A stretch of 64,000 nucleotides of DNA from Microbispora sp. H13382 (lineage in GTDB: Bacteria > Actinomycetota > Actinomycetes > Streptosporangiales > Streptosporangiaceae), in contig NZ_JABBXA010000003.1 of assembly GCF_014161445.1 (NCBI RefSeq), forward strand, positions 372,001 to 436,000. Reading direction: 5' to 3'. Both the position numbers and the translations under genes were made by a program. The notes under the pieces are model-generated. The model saw only the letters and a program-made list of their open reading frames with translations. It was not told the DNA's origin and made no database searches. This document shows, in pieces, positions 16,589 through 34,535 of the stretch. How positions within the stretch are numbered: position 1 is the stretch's first letter; every line of letters starts with the position of its first letter.

Positions 16589-16602
16589 TGGGAGCGCTCC
16601 CA
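16589..16602. promoter_or_regulatory. CebR box at the E1/E2/beta-glucosidase operon promoter
   Basis: Perfect palindrome TGGGAGCGCTCCCA covering the predicted transcription start (about 16599) of the leftward operon. Same sequence as the boxes at 11765, 40415 and 40535. Confidence 0.87.
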
Positions 16603-16605
16603 CGG

Positions 16606-16634
16606 AGCGTAGGTCCGGTAAGAGGCCTTGTCAA
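16606..16634 (-). promoter_or_regulatory. Predicted promoter of the E1/E2/beta-glucosidase operon
   Basis: Consensus -35 TTGACA (16629-16634), 17-bp spacer, -10 TACGCT (16606-16611), minus strand. The CebR palindrome sits at +1. This is the strongest sigma-70/HrdB-like promoter I found in the window. Confidence 0.7.
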
Positions 16635-16747
16635 TGCCTGGCGATACGGACGATTTGGGAGAGTGTGACCACATTGTTCGTGATCTGCGGCAATATACTC
16701 ACATTCCCCGCCTTGGGGCTAATAACGGACAGAAACTTCCATGACAC

Positions 16748-16777
16748 TTGACGAATGAAAGTCCTGATCCCTAGCCT
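16748..16777 (+). promoter_or_regulatory. Predicted promoter of the NRPS operon
   Basis: -35 TTGACG (16748-16753), 18-bp spacer, -10 TAGCCT (16772-16777). The predicted start at about 16784 leaves a leader of some 225 bases before the GTG at 17009. The CebR-like box at 16786-16801 begins right at the start point. Apart from these elements and the leftward promoter, nothing else is seen in the 500-bp divergent region. Confidence 0.62.
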
Positions 16778-16785
16778 CCACTGCC

Positions 16786-16801
16786 GTGGGAGCGTTCCCA
16801 C
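16786..16801. promoter_or_regulatory. CebR box (one-base variant) at the NRPS operon promoter
   Basis: GTGGGAGCGTTCCCAC. The core differs from the consensus palindrome TGGGAGCGCTCCCA by a single T in the right half. Its centre is 198 bp from the centre of the box at 16589-16602, so one repressor could bridge both divergent promoters. Confidence 0.8.
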
Positions 16802-17008
16802 TCATGCGTCCGAAATGGGGGTACCGGCGCGAGCGGCAATGGGTTCCGTGCCGCGCCAGGCACCAGGCAGGAAGCTCACCGGCGGTGATTCCGCCGCCGG
16901 GTCGTTGGCCGCCCGCGTCTTCGCATCGATTCGCCGGCGTACCGGGGCGCAGAGCGCACAAAGGAATGCCATGTTCTTAATGCAAATTTCAACCGAGGTG
17001 CCGGCCTC

Positions 17009-20000
17009 GTGACCCGGACCGGCCTCTCACCGGCCAAACAGGCGCTGCTGGCGCAGCGGCTCAGGGCCGGGAAAGCCGCGAGGGTCACCGTGCCGCCGCG
17101 GCCGGTCGGCACCCACCCGCCGCTTTCGCACGCGCAGGAGCGCCTGTGGTTCCTGGAGCAGTACGCCCCGGGCACCACCGCCTACACCGTCGCCTTCGCC
17201 GTCCGGCTGGACGGCGGCGAGATCGACGACGCGGCCCTGGAGCGCGCCCTCGTCGAGGTGGCCAGACGCCACGAGAGCCTGCGCACCCGGTTCGTCACCA
17301 CCGACGACGGGACGCCGGAGATCGTGCTGGACGACGAGCCCCTGGTGGAGCTGCGGCTGGTCGAGCTGCGGCTGTCCGACGACGCCGCCACCGCGCGGGA
17401 GGCCGTGCAGGAGGAGCTGGCCCGGCCGTTCGACCTGGCGACCGGCCCGCTGCTGCGGCTGCTCCTGGTCCGGCTCGGCGCCCGCGAGCACGTGCTGCTC
17501 CTGACCATGCACCACGCCGTCACCGACGGCTGGTCGTGCGACATCGTGATGGAGGAGCTGCTCGCCCTGCACGAGGCGTACCGGACCGGGACCGACGCCG
17601 GTCTCGCCGACCCGCCCGTGCAGTACGGCGACTACGCGCTGTGGGAGCGCGGACGGACCCACGAGGACGACATCCGCTACTGGCGGGAGCGGCTGGCCGG
17701 CCTGCCGCCGCTGGAGCTGCCGACCGACCTGCCGCGCCCGCCGGAGCAGGGATCGGCGGGCGACGCCCACAACCTCGTGCTGGACCGCGAGCTGGTGGAC
17801 GCGCTCACGGAGCTGGGCGGGGCGAACGGCGCGACGCTGTACATGACGCTGCTCGCCGCCTTCCAGGTGCTCCTGGGCCGCTACTCCGGTCAGGACGACT
17901 TCGCGGTCGGGTCGCCCGTCTCGGGGCGCGACCTGCCGGAGCTGGAGCGGGTGGTCGGGCTCTTCATCAACTCGCTGCCGATGCGGGCCGACCTGTCCGG
18001 CGACCCGACCTTCACCGAGCTGCTCGGCCGGGTGCGCGAGACGGCGCTGGACGCCTACACGCACCAGGAGCTGCCCTTCGACCGGCTGGTCGGCGAGCTC
18101 GGCGTCGAGCGCGACGTGAGCAGGTCGCCGGTGTTCCAGGTGATGTTCGCGCTGCAGAACTACCGGTCGGCCCCGCTGCGGACCCAGGGCCTGACCATGT
18201 CGGCGTACCCGTTCGACGTGACCGCCAGCCGGTTCGACCTCGCGCTGTACCTGATGGACCAGGGCGACGGCCTGGTGGGGAACATCACCTACCGCACCGA
18301 GCTGTTCCGGCCGGCCACGATCGCGCGCCTGGCGGAGTGCTTCGAGAACCTGCTCAGGTCGATCGCCGCCGACCCCCACGCGCGGGTGTCGGACCTCGAA
18401 CTGCTCCCGGCGGCCGAGCGCGACCGCGTGCTCGGGTTCGCGGGAGCGGCGCCCGAGGCCGAGGCGCCCGCCGCGGACGCGTTCGGCGGGGCGTCGGCGC
18501 CGCACGAGGTCATCGCCGCGCAGGCGGCCCGCACCCCGTCCGCGACCGCCGTCGTCAGCGGGGACGACGCCCTCACGTACGCCGAGCTGGACGCCGCGGC
18601 CGACCGGCTCGCCCGGCGGCTGCGCGGGCTCGGCGTGCGGCGCGACGACCGCGTGGCGATCTGCCTGGAGCAGTCCACCGGGCTCGCGGTCGCGGTGCTC
18701 GGCGTGCTCAAGGCGGGCGCGGCCTACCTGCCGCTCGACCCTGAGCACCCGCGCGGCCGGCTCGAGTACGTGCTGGCCGACGCCGGGGCGTCGATCGTCG
18801 TGACCAGCCCGGACCTGCACGACCGGCTGCCGGACGAGATCACCGCCGTGCACCTCGACCACGACACGGACCACGACACGGACCACGACACGCCGGAGCC
18901 CGGCGACCCATGGGAACCCGCGGCGCCGGGCGACCTCGCGTACGTGATCTACACCTCCGGCACCACCGGGCGGCCCAAGGGCGTCGCAGTGCAGCACCAC
19001 GAGGTGATGGTCTACCTCGCCGGGGTGCGCGAACGGCTCGGAGTGGAGCCGGGCTCGTCCTTCGCCCTGCTCCAGTCACTCGCCTTCGACTTCGGCGTCA
19101 CGGTCTTCTACCTGTGCCTGATGACCGGCGGGACCCTGCACCTGGTGCCCTCGCGCACCGCCGGTCCCGAGCTGGCGGGGATCTTCCGGCGCACCGGGAT
19201 CGACTACCTCAAGATCACGCCGTCGCACCTCGCAGCGCTGCTCGCCGACGCCGGGCCGGACGACCTGCTGCCCAGGAAGCTGCTGCTCCTGGGCGGGGAG
19301 GCGGCCCCGCGCGGCTGGGCCGCCGAGCTCGCGGCGCTGGGCCGCTGCCGGGTCGTCAACCACTACGGGCCGACCGAGGCCACTGTGGGCGTGACCACCT
19401 ACGACGTCGCGCGGCTGCCCGCCCCCGACGGCCCGGCCGAGGCGAGCGTGAGCCTGCCGATCGGCTCGCCGCTGCCCCGGGCGCGGGCGTACGTGCTGGA
19501 CGAGCGGTTGCGGCCGGTGCCCGCCGGGGTGCCGGGGGAGATCTACCTCGGCGGCGAGCGGCTGGCCCGCGGCTACCTGAACCGTCCCGGCCTGACCGCC
19601 GACCGGTTCGTCCCCGACCCGTACGGCCCGCCCGGGTCGCGCATGTACCGCACGGGGGACCTCGGCCGGTGGTCCGGCTCCGGCGACCTGGAGTTCCTCG
19701 GCCGCCGCGACCTGCAGGTGAAGATCCGCGGCTACCGGGTCGAGCTCGGCGAGGTCGAGTCGGTGCTGGCCGACCATCCGGACGTCGCCCAGGCCGTGGT
19801 CGAGCCGCGCGGCGAGCAGCTCGTCGCCTACCTCGTCCCCGCCCCCGCCGCCGGGAACGCCGAGAACGCCGGGAACGCCGCGGACGGCGCACGACCGGAG
19901 ACCGCGGAGGTCCGCGCGTGGCTGGCCGACCGGCTGCCCGCGTACATGGTCCCCTCGCGGTACGCCTGGCTCGACGAGCTGCCGCTCAAGTCGCACGGCA

Positions 20001-22681
20001 AGGTGGACCGCTCGCGGCTGCCCGAGCCGGAGGCCGACGTGGCGGCGGCCGAGTACGTCGCCCCGGCGCCCGGCGCCGAGGAGGACGTGGCACGCGTCTG
20101 GGCGGAGGTGCTGGAAGTCGAGCGCGTGGGGGCGCTCGACGACTTCTTCGCCCTGGGCGGCCACTCGCTGCTGGCGATGCGGGTCATCGCCCGGCTGCGC
20201 AAGGCGCATCCGGACCGGCAGATCACGGTGCTCGACGTCTTCAAGCACCGCACCGTCCGCGAGCTGGCCCGGCTGCTCACGGCCGAGGGGGACGTGCCGC
20301 GCTCGCTGTTGCACCGGCTCACCCCCGCCGGGCCGGCCACCACCACCCTGGTGTGCGTGCCGTACGGCGGGGGCAGCGCGGTCGTCTACCAGCCGCTCGC
20401 GGACGCGCTGCCGGACGACTGGGCGCTCTACTCGGTCGCCGTGCCCGGCCACGAGCTGGGCGAACAGGCCCGGCCGTTCGACGAGGTCGTCGTCGACTGC
20501 GTGGCCGAGATCTCCGAGATCATGGACAGGAACGGCGGCTCGCTGGTGCTGTACGGCCACTGCGGCCTCGGCGTCATGCTGTCCGCCGAGATCGCCCGGA
20601 GGCTGGAGGCGGACGGCCGAACCGTGGACGCGCTGTATCTCGGCGGCGTGTTCCCCTTCGCCCGCCCGGGTCGCGGCCTGAACTGGCTCGGGACCTTCTT
20701 CGACCGCCTCACCAGCGACCAGCAGCGGGTCAACGCCCTGACCGCGGCCGGGCTCGACGTGGAGGATCTCGGCCGGGAGCAGGTCAAACTCATCGTGCGC
20801 AACCGCCGTGAAGGCACCCGCGCCGCCGAGCGGTACTTCACGCGGATCTTCGAGGAGGGCGGCGGTCCGGCGCTGCGCGCGCCGGTGATCTCCGTGGTCG
20901 GCGAACGCGACCCGGCGGCCGAGTTCTACCAGGAACGTTACAAGGAGTGGCACTGCCTGTCGGATGACGCGGCGTGCGTCGTCCTCGACGAGGCCGGGCA
21001 CTTCTTCCTTCGGTACCGCAGCGACGAGCTGGCCGAGATCGTCACCGGCACCCACGCCGCCGTCGCCTCCGGGCGTACGGAGGGGATGGAACGGGACGAG
21101 GCCCGCACCTGGTGGCTGCAGGGCGTCTCGAGCCGGTCCGCCGAGACCGGAACCGAAACCGGAACCGGGGCGGGCACGGCCCAGGACGGCCCGGACGGCC
21201 CGGACGGCCCGGACGGCCCGGACGGCGCCGCGGGCACACAGGTGCGCGTCGGCCCGCCGCCCAGCATGCGGCGCTTCCTCCTCGTCGCGGCCGGCCAGCT
21301 CGTCTCGATCACCGGCTCCGCGCTGACCGAGTTCGCCATCCCGCTGTGGATCTACCTCACCACCGGCTCGCTCGCCCGGTTCGCGCTGTTCTCCGTGCTC
21401 GGACTGCTGCCCGGCATGCTCGTCGCCCCGCTGGCCGGCGCCATCGTCGACCGGTTCGACCGGCGCAAGGTCATGATCGCCGGAGACGCGGCCGCCGGCG
21501 GCACCCAGCTCATGCTGGGACTGCTGCTGTGGACCGGCAACCTAGAGGTCTGGCACATCTATCCGCTGCTGGTCTGCCTGTCCGTCGCGCTCACCTTCCA
21601 ACGGCTGGCGTACACCTCGGCGATCCCGCAGCTCGTACCGAAACGGTTCCTCGGGCACGCCAACGGCGTCGTCCAGATGGCCACCGGCACCGCGCAGCTC
21701 ATCGTGCCGCTGATCGCGGTCGGGCTGATGGCGACGATCGGGCTGGAGGGCATCCTCATCATCGACGTGGTCAGCTACGTCGTCGCCACGCTCACCATCG
21801 TGCTGATCCGCTTCCCGGCGACGATGGCCTGGAAGCGACGGGAGAGCGTGCTCGCCGAGATGCTGGGCGGCATCCGCCACTCCTGGGGCAACCGGGGCTT
21901 CCGCGCGATGCTGTTCTACTTCGCGGTGCTGAACATCTTCCTGTCCCCGCTGTTCATGATGATCTCGCCGCTGGTGCTGTCGTTCGCGTCGCTGGCCGAG
22001 GTCGGCCGGGTGTCGTTCGCGGGCGGGCTCGGCGCCTTCCTCGGCGGTCTGGCGATGGCGGCCTGGGGCGGCCCGCGGCGCCGGCGGTTGTACGGCGTGC
22101 TGCTGTCCACGCTCGCCCTGTCGGTGTTCTGCCTGCTGACCGGGCTGTACCAGGACCTGTTCCTCATCGCCGTCGGCGCGTTCGGCATGTCGCTGTGCCT
22201 CACCCTGCTGAACGGCGTCTACGCCACGATCATCCAGGTCAAGGTGCCGCAGCGGTTCCACGGCCGCGTCATCGCGCTGAACACGCTGGTCGCCTGGTCC
22301 ACGCTGCCCATCGGGTTCGGCCTGGTCGCGCCGTACGGCGCGCAGGTCTTCGAGCCGCTGCTCGCCCCGGACGGGCCGCTCGCCGGCACCGTGGGCGTGG
22401 TGCTCGGCACCGGCCCGGGCCGCGGGATCGGCTTCATGTACGCCTGCTTCGCGCTGGCGATCGCCGTCATCGCACTGGTCGGCATGCGGGTGCGGGTGCT
22501 GCGCCGGTTCGACGCCGACGTGCCCGACGCCCTGCCCGACGACGTCGTCGGCTATCAGGCCCTGACCGAACGTGTCGCGGCCGCCCGTAAGGACACACGG
22601 ACAGGCACACGGACAGGCACGCGGGCGGACACAGGGGTGGGCACACGGGCGGCTCGCGAACCCGAGAAGGAGCACGCATGA
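17009..22681 (+). CDS. NRPS C-A-T-TE module fused to an MFS exporter
   Basis: An 1890-residue fusion. A short N-terminal segment (LSPAKQALLAQRLRAG) precedes the condensation domain, with intact H168-H169-AVT-D173-G. The adenylation domain (about 500-1010, YTSGTTGRPKG) has an eye-aligned pocket code D-F-T-K-L-G-H-V-G-K, close to Asp codes. The carrier-protein serine is S1053 in LGGHSLL. The thioesterase domain (about 1110-1365) has YGHCGLG with Cys1185 at the nucleophile position, a candidate Asp1301 and His1331 (EAGHFF). After a GPD-repeat linker (about 1390-1418) comes a complete MFS transporter of about 12 helices (about 1420-1835), followed by a hydrophilic tail. Being the only TE, this should be the last module, releasing and perhaps exporting the product. 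GTG 17009 has GAGGTG 8 bp upstream. It is the first gene of a nine-gene operon; its stop overlaps the next start by ATGA. Confidence 0.93.
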   Translation: MTRTGLSPAKQALLAQRLRAGKAARVTVPPRPVGTHPPLSHAQERLWFLEQYAPGTTAYTVAFAVRLDGGEIDDAALERALVEVARRHESLRTRFVTTDDGTPEIVLDDEPLVELRLVELRLSDDAATAREAVQEELARPFDLATGPLLRLLLVRLGAREHVLLLTMHHAVTDGWSCDIVMEELLALHEAYRTGTDAGLADPPVQYGDYALWERGRTHEDDIRYWRERLAGLPPLELPTDLPRPPEQGSAGDAHNLVLDRELVDALTELGGANGATLYMTLLAAFQVLLGRYSGQDDFAVGSPVSGRDLPELERVVGLFINSLPMRADLSGDPTFTELLGRVRETALDAYTHQELPFDRLVGELGVERDVSRSPVFQVMFALQNYRSAPLRTQGLTMSAYPFDVTASRFDLALYLMDQGDGLVGNITYRTELFRPATIARLAECFENLLRSIAADPHARVSDLELLPAAERDRVLGFAGAAPEAEAPAADAFGGASAPHEVIAAQAARTPSATAVVSGDDALTYAELDAAADRLARRLRGLGVRRDDRVAICLEQSTGLAVAVLGVLKAGAAYLPLDPEHPRGRLEYVLADAGASIVVTSPDLHDRLPDEITAVHLDHDTDHDTDHDTPEPGDPWEPAAPGDLAYVIYTSGTTGRPKGVAVQHHEVMVYLAGVRERLGVEPGSSFALLQSLAFDFGVTVFYLCLMTGGTLHLVPSRTAGPELAGIFRRTGIDYLKITPSHLAALLADAGPDDLLPRKLLLLGGEAAPRGWAAELAALGRCRVVNHYGPTEATVGVTTYDVARLPAPDGPAEASVSLPIGSPLPRARAYVLDERLRPVPAGVPGEIYLGGERLARGYLNRPGLTADRFVPDPYGPPGSRMYRTGDLGRWSGSGDLEFLGRRDLQVKIRGYRVELGEVESVLADHPDVAQAVVEPRGEQLVAYLVPAPAAGNAENAGNAADGARPETAEVRAWLADRLPAYMVPSRYAWLDELPLKSHGKVDRSRLPEPEADVAAAEYVAPAPGAEEDVARVWAEVLEVERVGALDDFFALGGHSLLAMRVIARLRKAHPDRQITVLDVFKHRTVRELARLLTAEGDVPRSLLHRLTPAGPATTTLVCVPYGGGSAVVYQPLADALPDDWALYSVAVPGHELGEQARPFDEVVVDCVAEISEIMDRNGGSLVLYGHCGLGVMLSAEIARRLEADGRTVDALYLGGVFPFARPGRGLNWLGTFFDRLTSDQQRVNALTAAGLDVEDLGREQVKLIVRNRREGTRAAERYFTRIFEEGGGPALRAPVISVVGERDPAAEFYQERYKEWHCLSDDAACVVLDEAGHFFLRYRSDELAEIVTGTHAAVASGRTEGMERDEARTWWLQGVSSRSAETGTETGTGAGTAQDGPDGPDGPDGPDGAAGTQVRVGPPPSMRRFLLVAAGQLVSITGSALTEFAIPLWIYLTTGSLARFALFSVLGLLPGMLVAPLAGAIVDRFDRRKVMIAGDAAAGGTQLMLGLLLWTGNLEVWHIYPLLVCLSVALTFQRLAYTSAIPQLVPKRFLGHANGVVQMATGTAQLIVPLIAVGLMATIGLEGILIIDVVSYVVATLTIVLIRFPATMAWKRRESVLAEMLGGIRHSWGNRGFRAMLFYFAVLNIFLSPLFMMISPLVLSFASLAEVGRVSFAGGLGAFLGGLAMAAWGGPRRRRLYGVLLSTLALSVFCLLTGLYQDLFLIAVGAFGMSLCLTLLNGVYATIIQVKVPQRFHGRVIALNTLVAWSTLPIGFGLVAPYGAQVFEPLLAPDGPLAGTVGVVLGTGPGRGIGFMYACFALAIAVIALVGMRVRVLRRFDADVPDALPDDVVGYQALTERVAAARKDTRTGTRTGTRADTGVGTRAAREPEKEHA
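21184..21226 (+). repeat. 9-bp tandem repeat encoding the GPD linker
   Basis: Unit GGACGGCCC repeated about four and a half times, encoding a (D-G-P)n linker between the thioesterase and transporter parts of the fusion protein. It is a likely site of copy-number variation and a flexible tether, and it marks the junction of the fusion. Confidence 0.8.
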
Positions 22682-24204
22682 CGGGGGCGACGAGGACGCG
22701 GGGCGTGCCCGCGCTCACCCTGCCGGAGCTGCTGCGGCTGCGCGCGGGGCAGGAGCCGGACGGCGTGGCGATGATCGTGGAGGGGCACGGGACGCTCACC
22801 TTCGCGGAGTGGGAGCGCAGGTCGGCGGTGCTCGCCGCCGGGCTGACGGGCCGCGGGGTCATCCCGGGCGACCGGGTGGCGCTGCACTTCGGCAGCCGCG
22901 ACTGGATCGACTTCGCCGTGGCGTTCTTCGGGGTGCTGAAGGCGGGCGCGGTGGCCGTGCCGATGTCGGACCGGCTGGCGCCGGCCGAGCTGCGTTACAT
23001 GATCGAGCACTGCTCGGCGACGGCGGTGCTGCTCGGCCGGGACCTCGCGGCGCCGGCGGGAGAGCCGTGGACCGCGACCCCGGCGGAGCTGGAAGCCGGC
23101 CTCGGGCCGGACCCGGCGCCGGAAGGGCCGCGGGTGCGGCCCGGGGACCTGGCGCAGATCCTCTACACCTCCGGCACGACCGGGCGGCCCAAGGGGGTCG
23201 GTGCGAGCCACGCCAACCTGGCCTACGGGTGCGTCACGCAGCCCAAGCACCGCAGGTTCGCCCACTCGCGGCACCTGCTGCACGCCTTCCCGATCGGCAC
23301 CAACGCCGGCCAGACCATGCTGGTCAACGCGCTGGACGCCCGGCCGGCCGTGCTGACCCCGGCGAGGTTCACGCCCGGCCGGTTCGCCCGGCTGATCGAG
23401 ACCTACCGCCCCGGCACCGTGTTCCTGGTGCCCTCCATGGCGATCGAGCTGCTCGACGCCGGGCTGCACGAGCGGCACGACATGTCCAGCGTGGTGCTGC
23501 TGGGGTCGGCGGCGGCCGCGCTTCCTCCCGCCGTGTCGGAACGTCTGTCGGCGGCCTTCCCGAACGCGACCGTGACGAACTACTACACGTCCACCGAGGC
23601 CGCCCCCGCTCAGACGATCATGATTTACGACCGTACGCGGCCGGCCGCGCTGGGCCGGCCCGCGTTCGGCGGCTCGCTGCGCATCACCGACGAGGAGGGC
23701 ACCCCGCTCCCGCCCGGGGAGACGGGCGAGGTGTGGATGCGCTCGCCCACCGCCACCCGGTCCTACTACGGCGACGCCGAGGCCAGCGCCAGGTCGTTCC
23801 GCGACGGCTGGGTGCGCATGGGCGACGTCGGATACGTGGACGCCGACGGCTACCTCTACCTGGTCGACCGGGAGAGCGACGTGGTCAAGACCGGGGCGTT
23901 CAAGGTGTCCACCCTCCAGGTGGAGGCCGCGCTGCACGAGCACCCGCTGGTCGCCGAGGCGGCCGTGTTCGGGCTCCCGCACCCGGTGCTGGGCTCCGTG
24001 CTGGGCGCCGCGGTGGTGCCCAGGTCGCCGGGGCTCGTCGCGAGTGAGGTGCGCTCCTTCCTGATGGACCGGCTGGCCTGGCACGAGCTCCCCGAACGGG
24101 TCCTCGTGGTCGACAGCCTGCCCAGGAACCAGTCAGGAAAGGTCATCAAGAAGGAGCTGCCCGCGCTGCTGGGCGACTCCGTGATCAGCACGGAAGGCGA
24201 ATGA
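22678..24204 (+). CDS. Stand-alone acyl-AMP ligase / acyl-CoA synthetase
   Basis: A 508-residue ANL-superfamily adenylating enzyme without a carrier domain. The P-loop-like A3 motif is ILYTSGTTGRPKG (about residues 161-173). The A5 region reads NYYTSTEAAPAQ, A7 is MGDVGYVDADGYLYLVDRESDVVKTGAFKVS, and the catalytic A10 lysine is in NQSGKVIKKEL near the end. The sequence resembles carboxylic acid-CoA ligases more than amino-acid A domains. It most likely activates an acyl or aryl acid and loads it on the free carrier protein (25774) or the C-T protein (24206). It overlaps the preceding NRPS stop by 4 bp, and the C-T gene begins 1 bp after its stop. Substrate unknown; a product of the divergent 2-oxo acid dehydrogenase is one possibility. 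Confidence 0.88.
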   Translation: MTGATRTRGVPALTLPELLRLRAGQEPDGVAMIVEGHGTLTFAEWERRSAVLAAGLTGRGVIPGDRVALHFGSRDWIDFAVAFFGVLKAGAVAVPMSDRLAPAELRYMIEHCSATAVLLGRDLAAPAGEPWTATPAELEAGLGPDPAPEGPRVRPGDLAQILYTSGTTGRPKGVGASHANLAYGCVTQPKHRRFAHSRHLLHAFPIGTNAGQTMLVNALDARPAVLTPARFTPGRFARLIETYRPGTVFLVPSMAIELLDAGLHERHDMSSVVLLGSAAAALPPAVSERLSAAFPNATVTNYYTSTEAAPAQTIMIYDRTRPAALGRPAFGGSLRITDEEGTPLPPGETGEVWMRSPTATRSYYGDAEASARSFRDGWVRMGDVGYVDADGYLYLVDRESDVVKTGAFKVSTLQVEAALHEHPLVAEAAVFGLPHPVLGSVLGAAVVPRSPGLVASEVRSFLMDRLAWHELPERVLVVDSLPRNQSGKVIKKELPALLGDSVISTEGE

Positions 24205-24205
24205 G

Positions 24206-25780: not shown

Positions 25781-26007
25781 GGGAGCGCGTGGCCGAGCTG
25801 GTGTCGAAGGCGAGCGGCGGCGACCTGGCCGCCGCCGACATCCTGGCGGCGGACTGCAGCCTGCCCGCGCTCGGCCTCACCTCGATCGCCTACCTCCGGC
25901 TGATCGACCTGCTGGAGACCGAGTTCGACTGCGACGTCGACCTGGACGGCGGCCACCTCAACACGCTCGACGGCCTGGTCGAGCACATCGCGGGGCAGCG
26001 GAAGTGA
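25774..26007 (+). CDS. Free-standing acyl/peptidyl carrier protein
   Basis: A 77-residue carrier protein. The predicted phosphopantetheine attachment serine is S37 in LGLTSIAYLRLID. An acidic helix follows (LLETEFDCDVDLDGG), and the length is typical of a discrete ACP/PCP. It sits between the C-T gene and the second C-type gene with overlaps at both ends (7 bp upstream, GTGA downstream), so it is translated in step with them. A free carrier beside a free acyl-AMP ligase is the usual arrangement for loading a starter acid. No phosphopantetheinyl transferase gene is in the window, so a housekeeping enzyme must activate it. Confidence 0.87.
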   Translation: MLRERVAELVSKASGGDLAAADILAADCSLPALGLTSIAYLRLIDLLETEFDCDVDLDGGHLNTLDGLVEHIAGQRK

Positions 26008-27770
26008 CCGCGGGTCCGCCGGCGGTGGAGGCCCCCGGCCTCACGGCGCTGCCGCCGCGCACCGTGGAGTTCCGCGGCGCCCGGGACGGGCAGGCCGCGC
26101 TGACCTGGGGCCAGCAGGGGATCTGGCGCTCCACCCAGTGGCTGGACGACGGCGACCCCTACTTCAACCTGCCCTGGACCCTGCCGGTGACCGGCGCGGC
26201 CGACGTGGACGCCGTGCTGCGCGCCGTGGGCCGCCTCGTCGAGCGGCACGAGACGCTGCGCACGGCGTTCGTCCGGGACGGGGACAGCACCAGCCAGCGG
26301 GTGAGCCGGGAGGGCCGGCTCACGGTCGGCGTGTACGAGGCGGCGGCCAAGCCGATGAGCGCGGCCAAGGCGCTGGCCGCCGAGTTGGCCGCGACCGGGT
26401 TCGACTACGCGGCCGAGCTGCCGATCCGGTGCGCGGTCGTCTGCCAGCGGGGCCGGCCGCGCGCGCTCGCGCTCGCGCTGTCCCATCTCGCGCTCGACGG
26501 CTGGTCGCTGAACACGGTGGCCGCGGAATGGCCGCGGCTGGTCGCCGGGGAGGACCTGCCCGGCCCGGACTGGCAGCCGCTCGACCAGGCGGCCTTCGAG
26601 AGGTCGGACCCGCCGCCCGGGGGCCAGGCGCTGCGGCACTGGCGGACCGGCCTGACATCCGCGCCGCGTTCGATGTTCGACTTCCCGGCGCGGGAACCCG
26701 AGGAGCCGCGCTTCGTCCGGCACGGGATGGACTCCCCGGCGGCGGCCGTCGCCGCCGAGGCGCTCGCCGCCCGGCACGGCGTGACGACCTCCAGCGTGCT
26801 CACGGTCGCCAGTGCCGCCCTGCTCGGCGCCGTGACCGGGCATCGTACGGCTGCGCTGCAGCTCATCGTGTCGAACCGGCACCACCCGGGGATGGAGGCG
26901 ATGGCCGGGCCCGCCGCCCAGGACGGGCTGTGCGTCATCGACCTCGGGGACGGCACGTTCGCCGGCGCGCTGCGGCACGGACATCGCAGGACCATGGCGA
27001 CGTACCGGAACGGGCACTACGACCCCGCGCTCGTGCTGGCCGCGTGGGAGGCCGAGGCGTGGCGGCGCGGCGCCGACATCGACCTGGACGCGTTCTTCAA
27101 CGACGTCAGGCAGGCGGGCCGCTGGCAGGGCCTGCCGCAGGTCGATCCGGGAGACGCCGCGGCGCTCGCCACACTCCGGGGCAGGACCAGGACGTTCTTC
27201 GTCGGCGCCTACCCCGCGGTCAAGGCGAGGATCTTCTTCGCCACCGGTCCCGCCCCGTCCACCTGCGAGTTCTACGTGCTGGTGGACACCGCCTTCCTGC
27301 CCGGAGACGTCGCCGAGCGGATGCTCACCGGCCTGGAGGAGCTGCTGGTCCGGGCCGTCTCGGAGGAGGTGCTGCTGGACCAGGTCGCGAAGATCGCGGG
27401 CCTGGACCCGGTGCCGCGCCCCGCCGGATGGACGGCGATCGGCCACGACTGGGTGAGCCTGCCGGAGACCGAGGCGCTGCTGCGCCGGGTGTGCGGGACC
27501 GGCGTGGCCGCGGTCGCGCTGGAGGACGGCGACGACGGGGCGCCCCTGCTGACGGGGTACCTCGTCGCGCGCCCCGGGCTGGACACGCCCGAGGCCGTCC
27601 ACACCGCCTTCATGCGCGCCGCGACCGGCCGGACCGACGTGCTCGCCCCTCACCACTACGTCCTGTGCGCGGCGCCCCCGGCCGATTCCGCCGGCTGGCC
27701 CGGCTGTCCCCGCCTGGCCGAGGGCGGGGGCCGGGAGCCGTCCCCCTCAACGAACCCCTGGGAAAGATGA
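26004..27770 (+). CDS. Atypical stand-alone condensation-like protein with C-terminal extension
   Basis: A 588-residue C-domain-fold protein. It opens with LTWGQQGIWRSTQWLDDGDPYFN, the usual C1 region. The active-site motif reads S160-H161-LAL-D165-G: the first His of HHxxxDG is Ser while the catalytic second His and the DG remain. It is about 130 residues longer than a plain C domain. The tail (about 475-575, ETEALLRRVCG...LLTGYLVARPG) loosely resembles the small C-terminal subdomain of an A domain without its main part. GTG 26004 overlaps the carrier stop by 4 bp and supersedes a longer open frame inside the upstream gene. It may acylate an unusual nucleophile or act as a structural/tailoring C-like domain. 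Function is inferred only. Confidence 0.8.
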   Translation: MTAGPPAVEAPGLTALPPRTVEFRGARDGQAALTWGQQGIWRSTQWLDDGDPYFNLPWTLPVTGAADVDAVLRAVGRLVERHETLRTAFVRDGDSTSQRVSREGRLTVGVYEAAAKPMSAAKALAAELAATGFDYAAELPIRCAVVCQRGRPRALALALSHLALDGWSLNTVAAEWPRLVAGEDLPGPDWQPLDQAAFERSDPPPGGQALRHWRTGLTSAPRSMFDFPAREPEEPRFVRHGMDSPAAAVAAEALAARHGVTTSSVLTVASAALLGAVTGHRTAALQLIVSNRHHPGMEAMAGPAAQDGLCVIDLGDGTFAGALRHGHRRTMATYRNGHYDPALVLAAWEAEAWRRGADIDLDAFFNDVRQAGRWQGLPQVDPGDAAALATLRGRTRTFFVGAYPAVKARIFFATGPAPSTCEFYVLVDTAFLPGDVAERMLTGLEELLVRAVSEEVLLDQVAKIAGLDPVPRPAGWTAIGHDWVSLPETEALLRRVCGTGVAAVALEDGDDGAPLLTGYLVARPGLDTPEAVHTAFMRAATGRTDVLAPHHYVLCAAPPADSAGWPGCPRLAEGGGREPSPSTNPWER

Positions 27771-27771
27771 C

Positions 27772-27960
27772 ATGACCGATTCTCCGATGCTCGTGGTCGT
27801 CAACGACGAGGAGCAGTTCTCCGTATGGTGGAGCGACCGCGAGCCGCCCGCCGGGTGGCGGCCCACCGGCTTCGCGGGCACCCGCCAGGAATGCCTGGAC
27901 CACATCGAGACGGTGTGGACCGACATGCGGCCGCTGAGCGTACGCGACCTGGGCAGATGA
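27772..27960 (+). CDS. MbtH-like NRPS accessory protein
   Basis: A 62-residue MbtH-family protein, required as a chaperone/activator by many actinobacterial adenylation domains. The family pattern is clear: NDEEQFSVWW, EPPAGW, and ETVWTDMRPLS near the end. It starts 1 bp after the preceding stop and overlaps the next gene by ATGA. It probably assists the A domains at 17009, 29392 and 31320. Confidence 0.95.
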   Translation: MTDSPMLVVVNDEEQFSVWWSDREPPAGWRPTGFAGTRQECLDHIETVWTDMRPLSVRDLGR

Positions 27961-29384
27961 CCGCCGCCGAGCGCCGCGCCGCGCTGATCGAGAAGCTGGC
28001 CGGCCTGCCCCCCGAGCGCCGGGCGGCGCTGCTGCGCTCCCTCGGGGGCGCGCCCCGGGACACCGGCGGGCAGGAGTGGCCGCTGTCGCCCGGGCAGGAG
28101 CGCCTGTGGTTCCTCAGCCGCTTCGACCCGGCCGACACCACCTACAACACGCCCTGGTGCATGCGGCTGCGCGGTCCGCTCGACGTGGGCGCGCTGTCCG
28201 CCGCGTTCACCCGGATCGTGGAGCGGCACGAGGTGCTGCGGACCCGCTTCCGGCTGCGCGGGGACGCCCCCGTGCAGGTCGTGCTGCCGCCCGGACCGGT
28301 GCCGCTGGAGAAGATCGCGTTCTCCGGGGAGGCGGACCTCGAACGGGCGTTGAAGGAGTTCGTCGACCGCCCGTTCGACCTGGAGAACGCGCCTCCCCTG
28401 CGGGCCGGCCTGGCCGGGCTGGGGGAGGGCGACGCGGTCGTGTGCATCGTCCTGCACCACATAGTGATGGACGGCTGGTCGCTCGACGTGCTCCTGCGTG
28501 AGCTCACGGAGTGCTACGCCGCCGCACGCGAGGGACGTGAGCCCGAACTGCCGGAGCTGCCCACGCAGTACCCCCGCTTCGCGGTGCAGGAGAGACAGCG
28601 GGACCACACCGAGGGCGTGGAGTTCTGGGCGCGCCGCCTGGCCGGCGCCCCGGCGCTGGACCTTCCGGCCGACCACCCCCGGCTGTCCCGGTGGTCCGGG
28701 CGCGGCGGACGCGAGCAGCTGCTGCTGCCGCCGGAGGTGATCACGCCGCTGGAGAAGGTGGCCAGGAAGCGGCGCTGCACGTCGTTCATGGCCCTGATCG
28801 CCGCCTACCAGGCGACCCTCGCCCTGGCGTCGGGCCAGACCGACTTCTGCGTCGGCGTGCCGGTGGCCGGCCGGAGCCGCAGCGAGCTCGCGCCGTTGAT
28901 CGGCTACTTCGGCAACACGATGGTGGTGCGCGCCGACCTGTCCGGCGATCCGTCGTTCCACGAGCTGCTGGACCGCGTGCGGGAGACGACCCTGGCCGGG
29001 ATGCGGCACGCGGAGGTGCCGTACGAGCACGTCCTGGCCGCGCTGCGCGTCCCCCGCGACATCAGCAGGCCGCCGCTGTGCCAGGTCATGTTCAACCTGC
29101 ACAACCTGCCCAAGGAAGATCTGCTGGGGACCCGGTTCGCCGACCTCGACCGGGAGATTCACGTGGTCCCGCCCAGCCACACCAAGTCCGAGGTCTCGAT
29201 GGACCTGTGGCGGGGACCGGAGGGGCTGGGCGGCGTCCTCGACTACAGCAGCGACCTGTTCACGCCCGCGACCGCGCGCCGCCTCATCGGCGGTTTCGCC
29301 GAGGTCGTACGGCGGGCCGGGGCCGACCCCGACATCCCGCTGTCCGCGCTGAGCGGCCCGTTCGCGCGCGTGTTCTCGAAGTGA
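27957..29384 (+). CDS. Stand-alone NRPS condensation domain
   Basis: A 475-residue protein consisting of a short N-terminal helical segment (MTAAERRAALIEKLAGLPPE), likely a docking element, and one condensation domain starting PLSPGQERLWFLSRFDP. The active-site motif H167-H168-IVM-D172-G is intact, and later C motifs (VGVPVAGRSRSELAPLIGYFGNT) are normal. No A or T domain is attached. The next gene encodes an A-T protein, so the two probably work together as a split C-A-T glycine module. ATG 27957 overlaps the mbtH stop by 4 bp. Confidence 0.9.
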   Translation: MTAAERRAALIEKLAGLPPERRAALLRSLGGAPRDTGGQEWPLSPGQERLWFLSRFDPADTTYNTPWCMRLRGPLDVGALSAAFTRIVERHEVLRTRFRLRGDAPVQVVLPPGPVPLEKIAFSGEADLERALKEFVDRPFDLENAPPLRAGLAGLGEGDAVVCIVLHHIVMDGWSLDVLLRELTECYAAAREGREPELPELPTQYPRFAVQERQRDHTEGVEFWARRLAGAPALDLPADHPRLSRWSGRGGREQLLLPPEVITPLEKVARKRRCTSFMALIAAYQATLALASGQTDFCVGVPVAGRSRSELAPLIGYFGNTMVVRADLSGDPSFHELLDRVRETTLAGMRHAEVPYEHVLAALRVPRDISRPPLCQVMFNLHNLPKEDLLGTRFADLDREIHVVPPSHTKSEVSMDLWRGPEGLGGVLDYSSDLFTPATARRLIGGFAEVVRRAGADPDIPLSALSGPFARVFSK

Positions 29385-29391
29385 AAGGTGC

Positions 29392-31323
29392 ATGGAAGTG
29401 AGTGACGCGGTGAGCGGCCTGACGGCGCCTCCGGGCGCCGGGCGGCCGGGGACGGGAACGGACGCCGCGACGGCGCTCGCGCTGATCCGCCGGTGGCGTG
29501 ACACGAGCCCCGACGCGGTCGCGGTGAGCGGCGCCGGGGGCCTGCTGACCTACCGGGAGCTGCACGACAGGGTCGACCGGCTCGCGGCGCTGCTGCGCGC
29601 CCGCGGAGTCGGCCAGGAGGTTCCGGTGGGGCTGTGCCTGGAGCGCTGCCCCGGCATGGTCGTCGCCCTGCTCGCCGTGTGGCGGGCCGGCGGCGCCTAC
29701 GTGCCGCTCGACCCGGGATTCCCGGAGGACCGGCTCCGGTTCATGCGGGAGGACGCGGGCATCCGGCTGGTCCTGGCCGGCCAGGGCGTCGAGTCCCGGC
29801 TGCTCGACGGCGTCGAGGACGTCGTCGAGCTGGCGTGGGACGGCGTTCCCGTCTCCGCCGGGGTGCCCGGCGACGTGCCGGCCGACGGCCCGGCGGGGGA
29901 CCTGGCCTACCTCATGTACACCTCCGGCTCCACCGGCAGGCCCAAGGGAGTCGCCGTGCCGCACGGCGCGGTGGTCCACCTGCTGGAGTCCTTCGCCTCC
30001 CTGCTGGAGCTCACCCCGCGCGACGCCTGGCTGGCGGTCACCACGCTGTCGTTCGACATCTCGGTGCTCGAACTCCTCCTGCCGCTGGCCTGCGGGGCGC
30101 GGGTCGTGGTCGCCTCCGGGCACGAGACGGCGGACGGCCGGGCCCTGCGGTCGCGCGCCGTGACCGAGGCCGTCACGATCATGCAGGCGACCCCGGCGAG
30201 CTGGCGCATCCTGCTCGAATCCGGCGGCGTGCCCGAGAACGTCGCGACCCGGCTGTGCGGGGGCGAGGCACTGCCCCGCGACCTCGCCGACGCCCTCCTC
30301 GGCGGCGGCGCCCGGCTCTGGAACGTGTACGGCCCGACCGAGACGACGGTCTGGTCGACGGCCGGGCGGGTGGCCCCGTCTCCTGGCCCTGTGGACCTGG
30401 GCGAGCCCATCGGCGACACGACGGTGCACATCCTCGGCCCCGACGGGCGTCCGGTGCCGCCCGGCGAGGCCGGCGAGCTGCACATCGGCGGCTCCGGCCT
30501 GGCCAGGGGATACCGCGGCATGCCGGGTCAGACGGCCGCCAGGTTCCTGCCCGACCCGTTCTCCGGAACGCCGGGCGCCCGCCTGTACGCCACGGGCGAC
30601 CTGGCCGCGATCGAGGACGGCAGGCTCCGCTACCTGGGCCGGGCCGACCAGCAGGTGAAGGTGCGCGGCTTCCGCATCGAGCTCGGTGAGATCGAGAGCG
30701 TGCTGCGCGCCGCGCCCGAGGTGGCCGACGCCGCCGTCGGCGTCTGCGAGGGCCCCGACGGGCTGCCGCGCCTGGTCGCCTACGTCGTGCGCGCGGCCGG
30801 GGAGCCCGAGGGGGCCGACCTGTGGCCGTCCCTGCGGGACCGGCTGCGCCGCAGCGTGCCCGAGTACATGGTGCCCGCGCACCTCGTGGTGCTGGACGCC
30901 CTGCCGCTCACCCCCAACGGCAAGCTCGACCGCAAGGCCCTGCCCGTGCCCGAGTGGACCCGGGCCCGCAGCCGGCCGTACCGGCCTGCGGCCACGCCGC
31001 TGGAGGAGGACCTCGCGGCGATGTGGGGCGAGGTGCTGGGCATCGCGGAGCCGGTGGGCGTCGACGACGACTTCTTCGAGCTGGGCGGGCACTCGCTGAC
31101 CGCCACCCAGATCATCGCCAGGATCCAGGCGCGCTTCGCGACCAACGTGCCGATCGTGGTGCTGTTCGAGAACCCGACCGTGGCCGGCCTGGCGGCGGCG
31201 ATGGACCGGCTCGACGACGACGACCTGGACCTCGCCGACATCGCCGCGCTCCGCGACGAGCTCGACGGCCTCAGCGCCGAGGACCTGGCGGCCGTGCTCG
31301 ACGAGATGGCGTCCGAATCATGA
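29392..31323 (+). CDS. NRPS A-T protein, glycine-type adenylation domain
   Basis: A 643-residue adenylation-carrier protein. The A domain (about residues 25-520) has A3 LMYTSGSTGRPKG, A5 NVYGPTETT and A8 VKVRGFRIELGEIE. The pocket code aligned by eye to GrsA is D-I-L-Q-L-G-V-V-W-K, nearly identical to known glycine codes (DILQLGLIWK, DILQLGMVWK). The carrier serine is S568 in FELGGHSLTATQ. An acidic C-terminal tail of about 40 residues (DDDDLDLADIAALRDELDG) looks like a docking helix for the next protein. It follows the stand-alone C gene by 7 bp and overlaps the next NRPS gene by ATGA. Together with that C domain it would form a glycine-incorporating module. Confidence 0.92.
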   Translation: MEVSDAVSGLTAPPGAGRPGTGTDAATALALIRRWRDTSPDAVAVSGAGGLLTYRELHDRVDRLAALLRARGVGQEVPVGLCLERCPGMVVALLAVWRAGGAYVPLDPGFPEDRLRFMREDAGIRLVLAGQGVESRLLDGVEDVVELAWDGVPVSAGVPGDVPADGPAGDLAYLMYTSGSTGRPKGVAVPHGAVVHLLESFASLLELTPRDAWLAVTTLSFDISVLELLLPLACGARVVVASGHETADGRALRSRAVTEAVTIMQATPASWRILLESGGVPENVATRLCGGEALPRDLADALLGGGARLWNVYGPTETTVWSTAGRVAPSPGPVDLGEPIGDTTVHILGPDGRPVPPGEAGELHIGGSGLARGYRGMPGQTAARFLPDPFSGTPGARLYATGDLAAIEDGRLRYLGRADQQVKVRGFRIELGEIESVLRAAPEVADAAVGVCEGPDGLPRLVAYVVRAAGEPEGADLWPSLRDRLRRSVPEYMVPAHLVVLDALPLTPNGKLDRKALPVPEWTRARSRPYRPAATPLEEDLAAMWGEVLGIAEPVGVDDDFFELGGHSLTATQIIARIQARFATNVPIVVLFENPTVAGLAAAMDRLDDDDLDLADIAALRDELDGLSAEDLAAVLDEMASES

Positions 31324-34300
31324 GGGCGCCCCTGTCGCCGGGCCAGGAACGGCTGTGGCTCCTGCAGAAGCTGAGCCCCCACGACGCCTCGTACACCATG
31401 TACCTCGTCCACCGGCTGCGCGGGCCCCTCGATCCGGACGCCCTCGATTGGGCGTTCGCCGACCTCGCGGCCCGGCACGAGGGCCTGCGCACCCGGTTCG
31501 AGGAGGAGGACGGCGTCCCCTGGGCGGTCGCCGAGCCGGCGGGGGCGCCGGGATCCCTCCCGCCGGTCGAACGGATCCAGGCCGATGACGAGGAGCACGC
31601 CCGGCGGCTCGTCGCCGAGCGGGTGAACGCGCCGTTCGACCTCGCGGAAGGCGTGCCGCTGCGCGTCGCCCTCATCGCGATCGGGCCGCTGGACCACGTC
31701 CTGTGCGTCACGATGCACCACATCATCGGCGACGGCTGGTCGCTGGGGATCCTCCTGGACGACCTGGCGGAGTACTACACCGCACGCCTGCACGGCCGCG
31801 CGCCGAACCTGGCGCCGCTGCCGGTGCAGCCGTCCGACTACGCCCGCTGGCAGCGCCGCCGCGCCGAGCGCGCGGTGCCGTACTGGCAGGAGCGGCTGGC
31901 CGATCCGCCGCCGCCCGACCTGCCGTGCGGCATCGGCAGCGAGAGCCCCGGGGGCGCCGGCGACGATGATCGCGTGGCGTACCAGTTCGTCCGAGCCGGC
32001 CGGAAGGTCGCCGACGAGCTGGACCGGCTCGCCCGTGAGCACAGGACCACGCTGTTCACCGTGCTCATGACGGCCTACCAGGTGCTCCTGCACCGGCACA
32101 CCGGCCACACCGACGTCCTCGTCGGCACGGCCGTCGCCGGACGCGACCGGGTCGAGCTGGAGTCGATGATCGGCTACCTCTCGCAGACCGTCGTGCTGCG
32201 CGGCGATCTGGACGGGGACCCGTCGTTCGTCGAACTGCTGGGGCGCATCAGGCAGGAGGCGCTGACGGCGATGAGCCGCCCGTCGGTGCCGTTCGAGCGG
32301 ATCGGGCATCCCGTCGAGGCGCTGATGCCGACCATGTTCATCCTGCACACGCAGGCCGGGGGACCCACCCGGCCGTTCGGCGACCTGTCCGTCGGTGCCT
32401 TCCCCCACGGATACCGCCAGGTCAAGCTCGGCCTGTACGTCGAGGCATGGCTGGAGGACGGCGAGCTCGCCATGTCGTTCGGCCACGACGGGTCCAGCGG
32501 CTCCCCGCACGAGGCGGAGGCCGTCCGCCGGCTCGCCGACCGCTTCGTGCTCCTGCTCGAGTCGGTCGCGGCCGAGTCGCGTCGCCGGATCTCCGAGCTG
32601 CGCGTGTGGACCGCCGACGACGAGGCCGACATGAGGTCCATGGCCGGGGACGGCGCCGGCACCCTCGGACCGGCGGTCCCCGAGATGATCGCGGAGACCG
32701 TCCGGCGCACGCCCGCCGCCGTCGCGGTGGCCTGCGGGGAGACCGAGGTCACCTACGCGGAACTGGACCGGCGGGCGGCACGGCTCGCCGCGGTGCTGCG
32801 AGAGCGGGGCGTGCGCCCCGGCGACGTGGTCGGCGTCTGCCTGCCCCGTTCGGTCGAGGCGATCACCGCCCTGCTCGCGGTCTGGCGGGCGGGCGCGGCC
32901 TACCTGCCGTTCGAGCCGGACGAGCCGGAGGAGAGGCTGGCCTTCGCGCTCGCGGACGCCGGGGCGACGCGTGTGATCACGAACCGGGCGCTGCCCGCCG
33001 GGTTCACCGCCGTCGACCCGCTGGACGATGAGGACGGGGCGGCATCCGGCGAGCCGGGACAGACACGCCCGGGCGACGTGGCCTACGTGATCTTCACCTC
33101 CGGCTCCACCGGCCGGCCCAAGGGCGTCGCCGTCGAGCACCGCGCCATCGCGGCCCGGATCCGGTGGATGCGCGAGGAGTACGGCCTGGCGCCCGGCGAC
33201 CGCGTCGTCCAGTTCGCGTCGCTGAGCTTCGACACCCACCTCGAAGAGGTCTTTCCCGCGCTAGCCGCGGGGGCGACCCTGGTGCTGCTGCCCGGCGGGG
33301 CGGCGACGCTGCCCGACCTGCTGGCCGCCCCGGGCGGGGAACGGGTCACGGTGCTCGATCTGCCCACGGCGTACTGGCACCACCTGGTCGAGGAGATCGA
33401 CCAGATCGCCTGGCCGCCCGCGCTCCGTCTGGTCGTCATCGGCGGCGAGCAGGCGTCCGGCGGCGCGGTGGCGCGCTGGCGCGGCCGGTTCGGCGACGGC
33501 GTCCGCCTGATGAACACCTACGGCCCGACCGAGGCCGCGGTCATCGCGACCGCGGCCGACCTCGGCGCGACGCCGTACGGCAGGCCGCCCATCGGCAGGC
33601 CCATCGGCGCGACGACGGTCCACCTGCTCGACGCCGCCGGGGCGCCGGTTCCGAAGGGCGCGATCGGCGAGCTGGTCATCGGCGGTGCCGGGGTGGCACG
33701 CGGCTACCTGCGCCGCCCGGCGCTCACGGCCGCCGCGTTCGTCCCCGACCCGCTGGGACCGCCCGGGTCGCGGAGATACCGCACCGGGGACCGGGCACGC
33801 TGGAACCAGGGCGGCGCGCTGGAGTTCCTCGGACGGATCGACGGGCAGCTCAAGGTCCGCGGCTTCCGGATCGAGCCGGGCGAGGTCGAGGCGCGGCTGC
33901 TCGACCATCCGGGCGTCGGCCAGGCGTTCGTGACGGTCCACGCCGAGGAACTGGTGGCGTACGTGACCGGAACCGCGACGGGGGAGGAGCTCGCCGCGCA
34001 CCTCGCGCGGACTCTGCCGCGCCATCTCGTCCCGACCGCGTGGGTCGTGCTCGACTCCCTGCCGTTGACCAGCCGCGGCAAGGTGGACCGTACGGCGTTG
34101 CCCGCGCCGGTCCGGGCGTCGTCGGCAGGGCACGTCCCGCCGGACTCGGACGCGGAGCTCCTGGTGGCCGAGATCTGGGCGGAACTGCTCGGCGTCGCCT
34201 CCATCGGCGTGAACGACGACTTCTTCACCCTGGGCGGGCACTCGCTGCTCGCGACGAGGATCGCGGCCAGGCTGCGCCGGGCGACCGGGGTGGAGGTCCC

Positions 34301-34430
34301 GGTGCGGACGATCTTCGAACGGCGCACCGTGGCCGAGCTGGCGGTCGCGCTGGAGGACCTGCTGGTGGCCGAGCTGGAGGACATTTCGGAGGAGGAGGCC
34401 GAGCGCCTGCTCTCGTCCGCCGGCGGCTGA
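31320..34430 (+). CDS. NRPS C-A-T module, basic-amino-acid-type pocket
   Basis: A 1036-residue module. The condensation domain starts APLSPGQERLWLLQKL, with intact H133-H134-IIG-D138-G. The adenylation domain (about 450-940) has VIFTSGSTGRPKG, NTYGPTEAA and LKVRGFRIEPGEVE. The carrier serine is S975 in FTLGGHSLLATR. The eye-aligned pocket code is D-T-E-D-V-G-T-V-I-K. Acidic residues at pocket positions 239 and 278 resemble codes for lysine-like or other diamino acids, so a basic side chain is the best guess. No TE is present. The tail (AELEDISEEEAERLLSS) is a probable docking helix, perhaps to the C-A-T-TE-MFS protein. ATG 31320 was preferred over upstream starts lying inside the previous gene. 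It is the last gene of the operon; a strong hairpin follows. Confidence 0.91.
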   Translation: MRAPLSPGQERLWLLQKLSPHDASYTMYLVHRLRGPLDPDALDWAFADLAARHEGLRTRFEEEDGVPWAVAEPAGAPGSLPPVERIQADDEEHARRLVAERVNAPFDLAEGVPLRVALIAIGPLDHVLCVTMHHIIGDGWSLGILLDDLAEYYTARLHGRAPNLAPLPVQPSDYARWQRRRAERAVPYWQERLADPPPPDLPCGIGSESPGGAGDDDRVAYQFVRAGRKVADELDRLAREHRTTLFTVLMTAYQVLLHRHTGHTDVLVGTAVAGRDRVELESMIGYLSQTVVLRGDLDGDPSFVELLGRIRQEALTAMSRPSVPFERIGHPVEALMPTMFILHTQAGGPTRPFGDLSVGAFPHGYRQVKLGLYVEAWLEDGELAMSFGHDGSSGSPHEAEAVRRLADRFVLLLESVAAESRRRISELRVWTADDEADMRSMAGDGAGTLGPAVPEMIAETVRRTPAAVAVACGETEVTYAELDRRAARLAAVLRERGVRPGDVVGVCLPRSVEAITALLAVWRAGAAYLPFEPDEPEERLAFALADAGATRVITNRALPAGFTAVDPLDDEDGAASGEPGQTRPGDVAYVIFTSGSTGRPKGVAVEHRAIAARIRWMREEYGLAPGDRVVQFASLSFDTHLEEVFPALAAGATLVLLPGGAATLPDLLAAPGGERVTVLDLPTAYWHHLVEEIDQIAWPPALRLVVIGGEQASGGAVARWRGRFGDGVRLMNTYGPTEAAVIATAADLGATPYGRPPIGRPIGATTVHLLDAAGAPVPKGAIGELVIGGAGVARGYLRRPALTAAAFVPDPLGPPGSRRYRTGDRARWNQGGALEFLGRIDGQLKVRGFRIEPGEVEARLLDHPGVGQAFVTVHAEELVAYVTGTATGEELAAHLARTLPRHLVPTAWVVLDSLPLTSRGKVDRTALPAPVRASSAGHVPPDSDAELLVAEIWAELLGVASIGVNDDFFTLGGHSLLATRIAARLRRATGVEVPVRTIFERRTVAELAVALEDLLVAELEDISEEEAERLLSSAGG

Positions 34431-34515: not shown

Positions 34516-34535
34516 GTCGTATGCGTGGCCTCGTG

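Follow-up and report, generated by a model that had tools for sequence, protein, structure and literature searches.

The window analyzed here comprises 64,000 nucleotides of the 8.71-Mb genome of Microbispora sp. H13382 (positions 372,001 to 436,000 of contig NZ_JABBXA010000003.1) and harbors a nonribosomal peptide synthetase (NRPS) operon that is probably controlled by an adjacent LacI-family repressor of the CebR/CelR type. The operon consists of nine tightly packed plus-strand genes (17009-34430), for which Pfam gave the domain order C-A-T-TE-MFS, free A, C-T, free carrier, C, MbtH, C, A-T, C-A-T (C, condensation; A, adenylation; T, carrier; TE, thioesterase; MFS, major facilitator superfamily). 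Genes 4 to 6, coding for the carrier, condensation-domain and MbtH-like proteins, were added to the gene list of the first-pass annotation, which had been made from this DNA alone. A minus-strand operon encoding E1 alpha, E1 beta, E2 and a beta-glucosidase of glycoside hydrolase family 1 (GH1) is oriented divergently, and a LacI gene together with GH1-cebG-cebF-cebE is convergent to the NRPS operon (Pfam; Table 1). A CebR-like gene and a complete cebEFG-bglC operon with two perfect boxes (40415 and 40535) were thus recovered just past the cluster, as had been annotated. The nine NRPS operon genes were also said to include no pathway-specific regulator, and Pfam scans found none among them. No TxtR-like AraC activator was present within the cluster; an AraC-family gene lies at 45517-46500, approximately 11 kb beyond it. 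Rfam gave no match in 8000-44000, and the NRPS leader of approximately 215 nucleotides therefore contains no known RNA family.

Table 1. Boxes and genes at the NRPS locus, with their positions in the window
Feature	Position	Strand	Basis or remark
Aldose 1-epimerase	10762..11733	-	PF01263
Perfect box TGGGAGCGCTCCCA, before epimerase/APH genes	11765..11778		Sequence; box here also in many relatives
GH1 beta-glucosidase, end gene of E1/E2 operon	12102..13502	-	PF00232, TIGR03356
E2-like lipoyl acyltransferase	13429..14613	-	PF00198, PF00364; ETSKA lipoyl motif and C-terminal DHRYING (motifs read by eye)
E1 beta	14610..15587	-	PF02779, PF02780
E1 alpha	15584..16507	-	PF00676; probable start 16507, GTG after GGAG
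Perfect box TGGGAGCGCTCCCA, E1 promoter	16589..16602		Just after -10-like TACGCT
One-mismatch box TGGGAGCGTTCCCA, NRPS promoter	16787..16800		Few bases after -10-like TAGCCT; TTGACG upstream
NRPS gene 1, C-A-T-TE fused to MFS exporter	17009..22681	+	Pfam; A code DFTKLGHVGK
Gene 2, free-standing A (acyl-ligase-like)	22678..24204	+	Pfam
Gene 3, C-T	24206..25780	+	Pfam
Gene 4, free-standing carrier protein	25774..26007	+	PF00550
Gene 5, condensation-domain protein	26004..27770	+	PF00668; relatives
Gene 6, MbtH-like protein	27772..27960	+	PF03621
Gene 7, condensation domain	27957..29384	+	Pfam; start 27957 inferred
Gene 8, A-T	29392..31323	+	Pfam; A code DILQLGVVWK
Gene 9, C-A-T	31320..34430	+	Pfam; A code DTEDVGTVIK; start 31320 inferred
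Strong hairpin, probable terminator	34470..34529		z -8.05; between convergent NRPS and LacI genes
LacI-family repressor, CebR/CelR-like	34536..35555	-	Pfam, tree, recognition helix, orthologs, nearest PDB chain
GH1 beta-glucosidase, bglC-like	35584..37020	-	PF00232; GTG start 37020 inferred
cebG-like permease	37017..37907	-	BPD_transp_1; GTG start 37907 inferred
cebF-like permease	37904..38857	-	BPD_transp_1
cebE-like cello-oligosaccharide binding protein	38942..40291	-	Pfam; best PDB match 8bfy
Perfect box TGGGAGCGCTCCCA, in front of cebE	40415..40428		Sequence
Perfect box TGGGAGCGCTCCCA, in front of cebE	40535..40548		Sequence

Conserved boxes at the two divergent promoters

Both divergent operons carry a CebR/CelR-type box, as the first-pass annotation had claimed. 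The match is exact on the E1 side and has one mismatch on the NRPS side (GTGGGAGCGTTCCCAC when read over 16786-16801). Since E1 alpha probably starts at 16507, the box at 16589 lies outside this gene. In the whole genome, 21 sites with zero or one mismatch were counted (14 perfect and 7 one-mismatch) compared to 2 for the reversed pattern, and 5 of the 21 fall within the window, where 0.15 would be expected (binomial, 4e-7). Perfect boxes number 11 to 16 in each of 15 Microbispora genomes, 13 of which contain the variant TGGGAGCGTTCCCA, in a total of 18 copies; the controls (the reversed pattern for the perfect boxes) were 0 in both cases. All 18 copies precede a condensation-domain gene or a close homolog (Pfam was applied to the own-genome copies only): 12 at the NRPS cluster, 1 at a different cluster in G216 and 5 before a separate condensation gene (G, C and L numbers are our labels for genomes, contigs and loci). 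Further boxes of the genome stand at GH6-CBM2, GH9-CBM2, GH81, PL8 lyase and sugar-binding protein genes, which is the company expected of a cellulose regulator.

The promoters were compared at 34 loci (G051, with differently arranged boxes, was omitted). Upstream of the NRPS-side box, TTGAC was present in 33 loci and TAGCCT in 28; the E1-side box was preceded by TTGAC in 32 loci and, at a distance of up to 14 bases, by TACGCT or TACCCT in 26. The -10-like sequences of both sides differ in G133, G095, G058, G044 and G015, the NRPS-side elements are missing in G028, the E1-side -10 form is missing in G263, and both E1-side forms are missing in G208 and G196. When 24 of the 34 sequences were aligned (10 with other spacing or arrangement were dropped), 26 of 28 columns in the boxes were invariant, compared to 41 of 305 elsewhere; because the boxes served as anchors of this alignment, part of their invariance is built in, and protein searches had identified the loci. 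Each of the two operons would have a separate promoter in which a single operator directly follows a -10-like element, a position at which a bound repressor would block the start of transcription.

Relatives were searched with the gene-5 protein, which matched in 113 of 297 family genomes (E 1e-30, all distances); both flanks were read in 20 matching genomes and one flank in 20 further loci. The box pair precedes the NRPS genes in all 19 loci of the first set for which the upstream region was available (the G221 sequence ends before it). These include G208, where gene 1 is absent and the box pair stands directly before gene 5. Boxes were likewise found in 14 of the 20 further loci. Enclosure of the NRPS operon by the ceb regulon, which the first-pass annotation had emphasized, was seen in Microbispora and Microtetraspora, where the ceb operon adjoins the NRPS cluster, but it is not a defining feature of the system. 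The CebR ortholog was located in 18 genomes of other genera that bear the NRPS genes: 12 have it on a different contig, 4 (G123, G208, G095, G058) have it on the contig of the cluster at a distance of more than 150 kb, and 2 (G263, G051) within approximately 20 kb, these distances being inexact because some contigs are short. In 16 of 18 genomes, the gene is thus on a different contig or far away, and neighboring sugar genes do not explain the NRPS boxes. A second gene-5 homolog (50%) was noticed in G028 on C3, approximately 10 kb from the CebR ortholog (476862 and 487899) and apart from the cluster on C15.

When the genome collection was scanned with the box pair alone, 107 stretches were obtained, many from the same genomes as in the gene-5 search. 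All were classed by similarity to window proteins within 2.5 kb, and the class "elsewhere" may hold other kinds of NRPS. Stretches with an asymmetric second box (n = 38) had NRPS genes like those of the window in 28 cases by script plus L207 by eye, ceb/LacI genes in 5 and fell elsewhere in 4; for a symmetric second box (n = 69), the corresponding numbers were 1, 20 and 48. The box pair was also retained with other synthetase genes. In G216, the flanks are those of the window, namely, GH1, epimerase, APH and FMO genes to one side and the LacI and ceb genes to the other; between them, on C23 (L279, L280), lies another set of NRPS genes with no E1/E2 match and with the box pair kept at 176 bp, which makes this a possible cluster-swapping locus. 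The same flanks and a box by GH1 occur in G178, with no NRPS or E1/E2 match in the gap of approximately 6 kb. A second C-A-T-TE-MFS synthetase is encoded on C55 of the window's genome (349058; L256/L257, box at L257:4059), where a perfect box lies between the synthetase and a TauD-type dioxygenase gene, accompanied by genes for a protein with an FkbH-like start (by eye) and a carrier domain, a glycosyltransferase and an SDR; this is probably another box-controlled cluster. On C26, a pair of boxes with one mismatch each (63529 and 63757; L244, L259), 228 apart and near the contig end, stands before a free-standing condensation-domain gene, and in four other Microbispora genomes the variant box was found 35 to 41 bp before a homolog of this gene.

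The candidate repressor and competing explanations

The LacI protein encoded next to the cluster has the LacI helix-turn-helix and sugar-binding domains (PF00356 and PF13377), and its gene adjoins the cebEFG-bglC operon, which follows boxes of its own. Exactly one ortholog was found in each of 19 genomes asked (E 1e-110; 79 to 96% identity). The window protein and these 19 form a clade (support 90/85) with five LacI genes, four from Streptomyces and one from another actinobacterium, and four of the five adjoin cebEFG-bglC. The recognition helix GVGRGTVSRV is common to this clade, including the LacI genes beside Streptomyces ceb operons, and it occurs in no other own-genome paralog among the 30 loci compared (of 38 matches). 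The nearest PDB chain is 5ysz (E 4e-123), which we take to be CelR of Thermobifida fusca; no paper naming 5YSZ was found in the literature. The nearest match of cebE is 8bfy, a structure of S. scabiei CebE with bound cellotriose, of which the equivalents of D173 and W303 are retained (the 28-residue offset was set by hand). Judged by tree, recognition helix and neighborhood, the window protein is CebR/CelR-like.

Direct control, which had been proposed as a possibility, fits boxes that mostly follow -10-like elements and are kept across genera, also where CebR is far away and where the NRPS set is a different one. We therefore regard direct repression of the NRPS operon by the CebR/CelR-type protein, lifted by cello-oligosaccharides, as the best reading of these sequences and as a probable one. 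The NRPS operon and the divergent E1 alpha-E1 beta-E2-GH1 operon would form one biosynthetic unit under the adjacent repressor. Bound to both boxes, the repressor would block both start points; a cello-oligosaccharide imported by CebEFG would free it, and the peptide, E1/E2, beta-glucosidase and uptake genes would be switched on together. The positions, conservation and co-occurrence of the boxes, the promoter-like elements, the genes and the CebR ortholog are read from the DNA, and from these we infer repressor binding, the sugar as inducer and the direction of control. The asymmetric box on the NRPS side may be a weaker operator.

Several observations weigh against this interpretation. A strict sigma-70 consensus scan of 16450-17050 returned no promoter at either box, and the promoter call thus rests on conservation. 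Six of the 20 further loci have no box (L089, L098, L099, L100, L103, L105); the stretches examined there contain a gene-5 homolog, a carrier domain in one case and no other cluster gene. The TE-MFS part has matches in 125 of the 297 genomes (E 1e-60), and among 38 regions upstream of paralogous synthetases with this part, 6 contained a box (the reversed pattern, as a control, gave 0 in 249,786 bases). Of the regions without a box, 26 were judged by eye to lie behind co-directional genes (E1/E2 in 10, NRPS in 16), which places the operon promoter outside the view; the 12 paralogs that are apparently first in their operon (by eye) divide into 6 with and 6 without a box, so that the box is common, not general, in this class. 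Several genome boxes stand at genes without an evident link to cellulose (GGDEF-EAL, holin-like and not-identified genes). The rotihibin NRPS cluster of S. scabies responds to cellobiose, as proposed here for Microbispora, and does so independently of cebR according to the text available from PMC8552735; co-induction by cellobiose need not, therefore, mean control by CebR. Moreover, the genome has 38 LacI-family matches, the window LacI included, and on C17 a 44%-identical paralog (L111) starts 24 bp from a perfect box. Since this box also occurs at other LacI genes, its presence is not sufficient to identify the regulator.

This leads to the explanation that competes best with repression by the window LacI, namely, that the boxes are real LacI-family operators and that the main NRPS regulator is another paralog (on C17, C44 or C5), which may respond to another sugar or compete with CebR. 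A further box lies approximately 2.5 kb from that of the C17 gene, Actinomadura LacI genes grouping with the C17 paralog stand beside box pairs, and the recognition helix of the C5 paralog (L108) begins with the R-G residues of the window LacI. However, the complete Streptomyces CebR-type helix was confined to the window LacI among the own-genome loci compared, a LacI of the window type is the neighbor of the cluster in both Microbispora and Microtetraspora, and its ortholog was present in every genome asked. We consider a different main regulator unlikely.

Much less probable still is that the NRPS-side box serves as an auxiliary looping operator for the E1/GH1 promoter and leaves the NRPS operon uncontrolled. 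Such a role would be compatible with the spacing of the box pair, which is 195 to 200 in 26 of 34 loci, 206 to 208 in 5, 176 in 2 and 229 in 1. The departures from 198 (176, 207, 229) are near whole helical turns (R 0.65, p 0.003, an exploratory statistic on 13 hand-picked lineage values). The NRPS-side box has, however, its own conserved upstream elements, it is kept in stretches examined without an E1/E2 match (G133, G095, G058, G044, G015, G216), and as a lone variant it precedes another condensation gene in the four Microbispora genomes mentioned above. Finally, there is a negligible probability that the boxes match by chance in DNA rich in GC or are carried along with neighboring sugar genes: with up to three mismatches the window does contain just the number expected from shuffling (10 boxes compared to a mean of 7.9, with 27 of 100 shuffles reaching 10), but the exact-match counts against reversed-pattern controls rule out a chance origin, and the conservation across genera far from the CebR gene and the invariant columns speak against this explanation as well.

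Some related boxes were observed outside the NRPS loci. Between the two boxes of cebE the distance is 120 in Microbispora, compared to 130 in Microtetraspora, which, together with the phasing of the box pair, points to possible looping. The LacI gene on C17 (L246; boxes at 118665 and 121189) adjoins a gene that is kinase-like by eye; kinase and LacI pairs have been described in S. roseum and T. bispora (PMC3377646, in the part available). A perfect box at C55:111475 (L252) lies approximately 150 bp before a GGDEF-EAL gene, a possible link between cellulose sensing and cyclic di-GMP. LacI genes of Chloroflexota (L160, L204, L209) have similar box pairs, and the operator type thus extends beyond Actinomycetota. 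In a metagenome-assembled genome of Treponema (L183), the same palindrome occurs many times in steps of approximately 41 bp or multiples thereof and looks like a repeat array rather than operators.

Predicted product and relation to known systems

The operon contains all of the C, A, T and TE domains, and the HxxxDG motif is present in each of its five C domains. E1 alpha, E1 beta and the lipoyl E2 are encoded together with a free carrier protein. E1/E2 genes adjoin NRPS genes in several genera, and at ten paralog loci they are co-directional and directly before gene 1, which argues for a biosynthetic role. By analogy, the probable role of E1/E2 is to prime a carrier domain, with a keto acid or a ketose supplying the acyl unit that would be loaded onto the free carrier protein. 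E1/E2 priming of a carrier domain has been proposed for pepteridine, with naphthyridinomycin and pristinamycin IIa cited as further cases, in the accessible part of PMC5384830. As in these pathways, the genes scanned include no E3. In contrast to them, E2 is not fused to T-C in Microbispora, and no pteridine gene was found among the genes scanned.

The A-domain codes are near constant in 16 to 18 relatives. We take DFTKLGHVGK to be Asp-like, DILQLGVVWK Gly-like and DTEDVGTVIK Lys/beta-Lys-like, assuming a mapping of the code residues to GrsA positions. None of six A-domain code strings was found in the literature, and the substrate readings thus rest on general code tables. The A domains would add Gly-, Lys- and Asp-like residues, followed by release through TE and export by the MFS part.

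To our knowledge, scab-causing Streptomyces are the only bacteria in which CebR is known to control a peptide cluster. The parallel to thaxtomin in S. scabies drawn in the first-pass annotation was supported by the available part of PMC12527672, which gives the CebR sites CGGGAGCGCTCCCA and GGGGAGCGCTCCCA in the thaxtomin cluster, at -786/-900 far upstream of txtR/txtA and inside txtB. The two systems share a repressor of the LacI family that responds to cello-oligosaccharides (putatively so in Microbispora) and a 14-bp palindrome, nearly identical in sequence, within an NRPS cluster. Thaxtomin control additionally involves the activator TxtR (PMC8552735, available part), whereas in Microbispora the boxes closely follow -10-like elements and the operon was found to contain no gene for an activator. 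Thaxtomin is the known CebR-gated NRPS cluster; a family of the Microbispora type was not met in literature titles or abstract starts, in which no CebR-controlled NRPS outside Streptomyces was named.

The same type of palindrome defines the CelR regulon of Thermobifida fusca and its relatives, with cellulase, beta-glucosidase and ABC-transporter genes as targets (PMC3377646, from which the following points are likewise taken as far as its text was available). S. roseum has 8 perfect and 7 one-mismatch CelR sites, and some were noted in 2012 to have neighboring genes "related to pyruvate dehydrogenase," which may correspond to E1/E2 of the NRPS unit; "peptide synthetase" does not occur in the main text as available. 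Its sole "secondary metabol" passage concerns a polyketide synthase gene of A. mirum, within which a site lies.

Some Microbispora strains come from plants. The promoter pair with its CebR operators could be a portable switch for C-A-T-TE-MFS synthetases in the Streptosporangium family, kept while the NRPS genes are exchanged and present at several NRPS loci of one genome (C23, C26 and C55 in that of the window), with cellulose as a general on-signal for peptides; we give this wider proposal an even chance. Many relatives carry box-bearing peptide clusters, and contact with cellulose probably starts peptide synthesis. If this is true, cellulose sensing would drive peptide synthesis in many rare actinomycete genera, silent clusters could be awakened by feeding cellobiose or cellotriose or by the loss of one repressor gene, and responsive clusters would be predictable from DNA alone.

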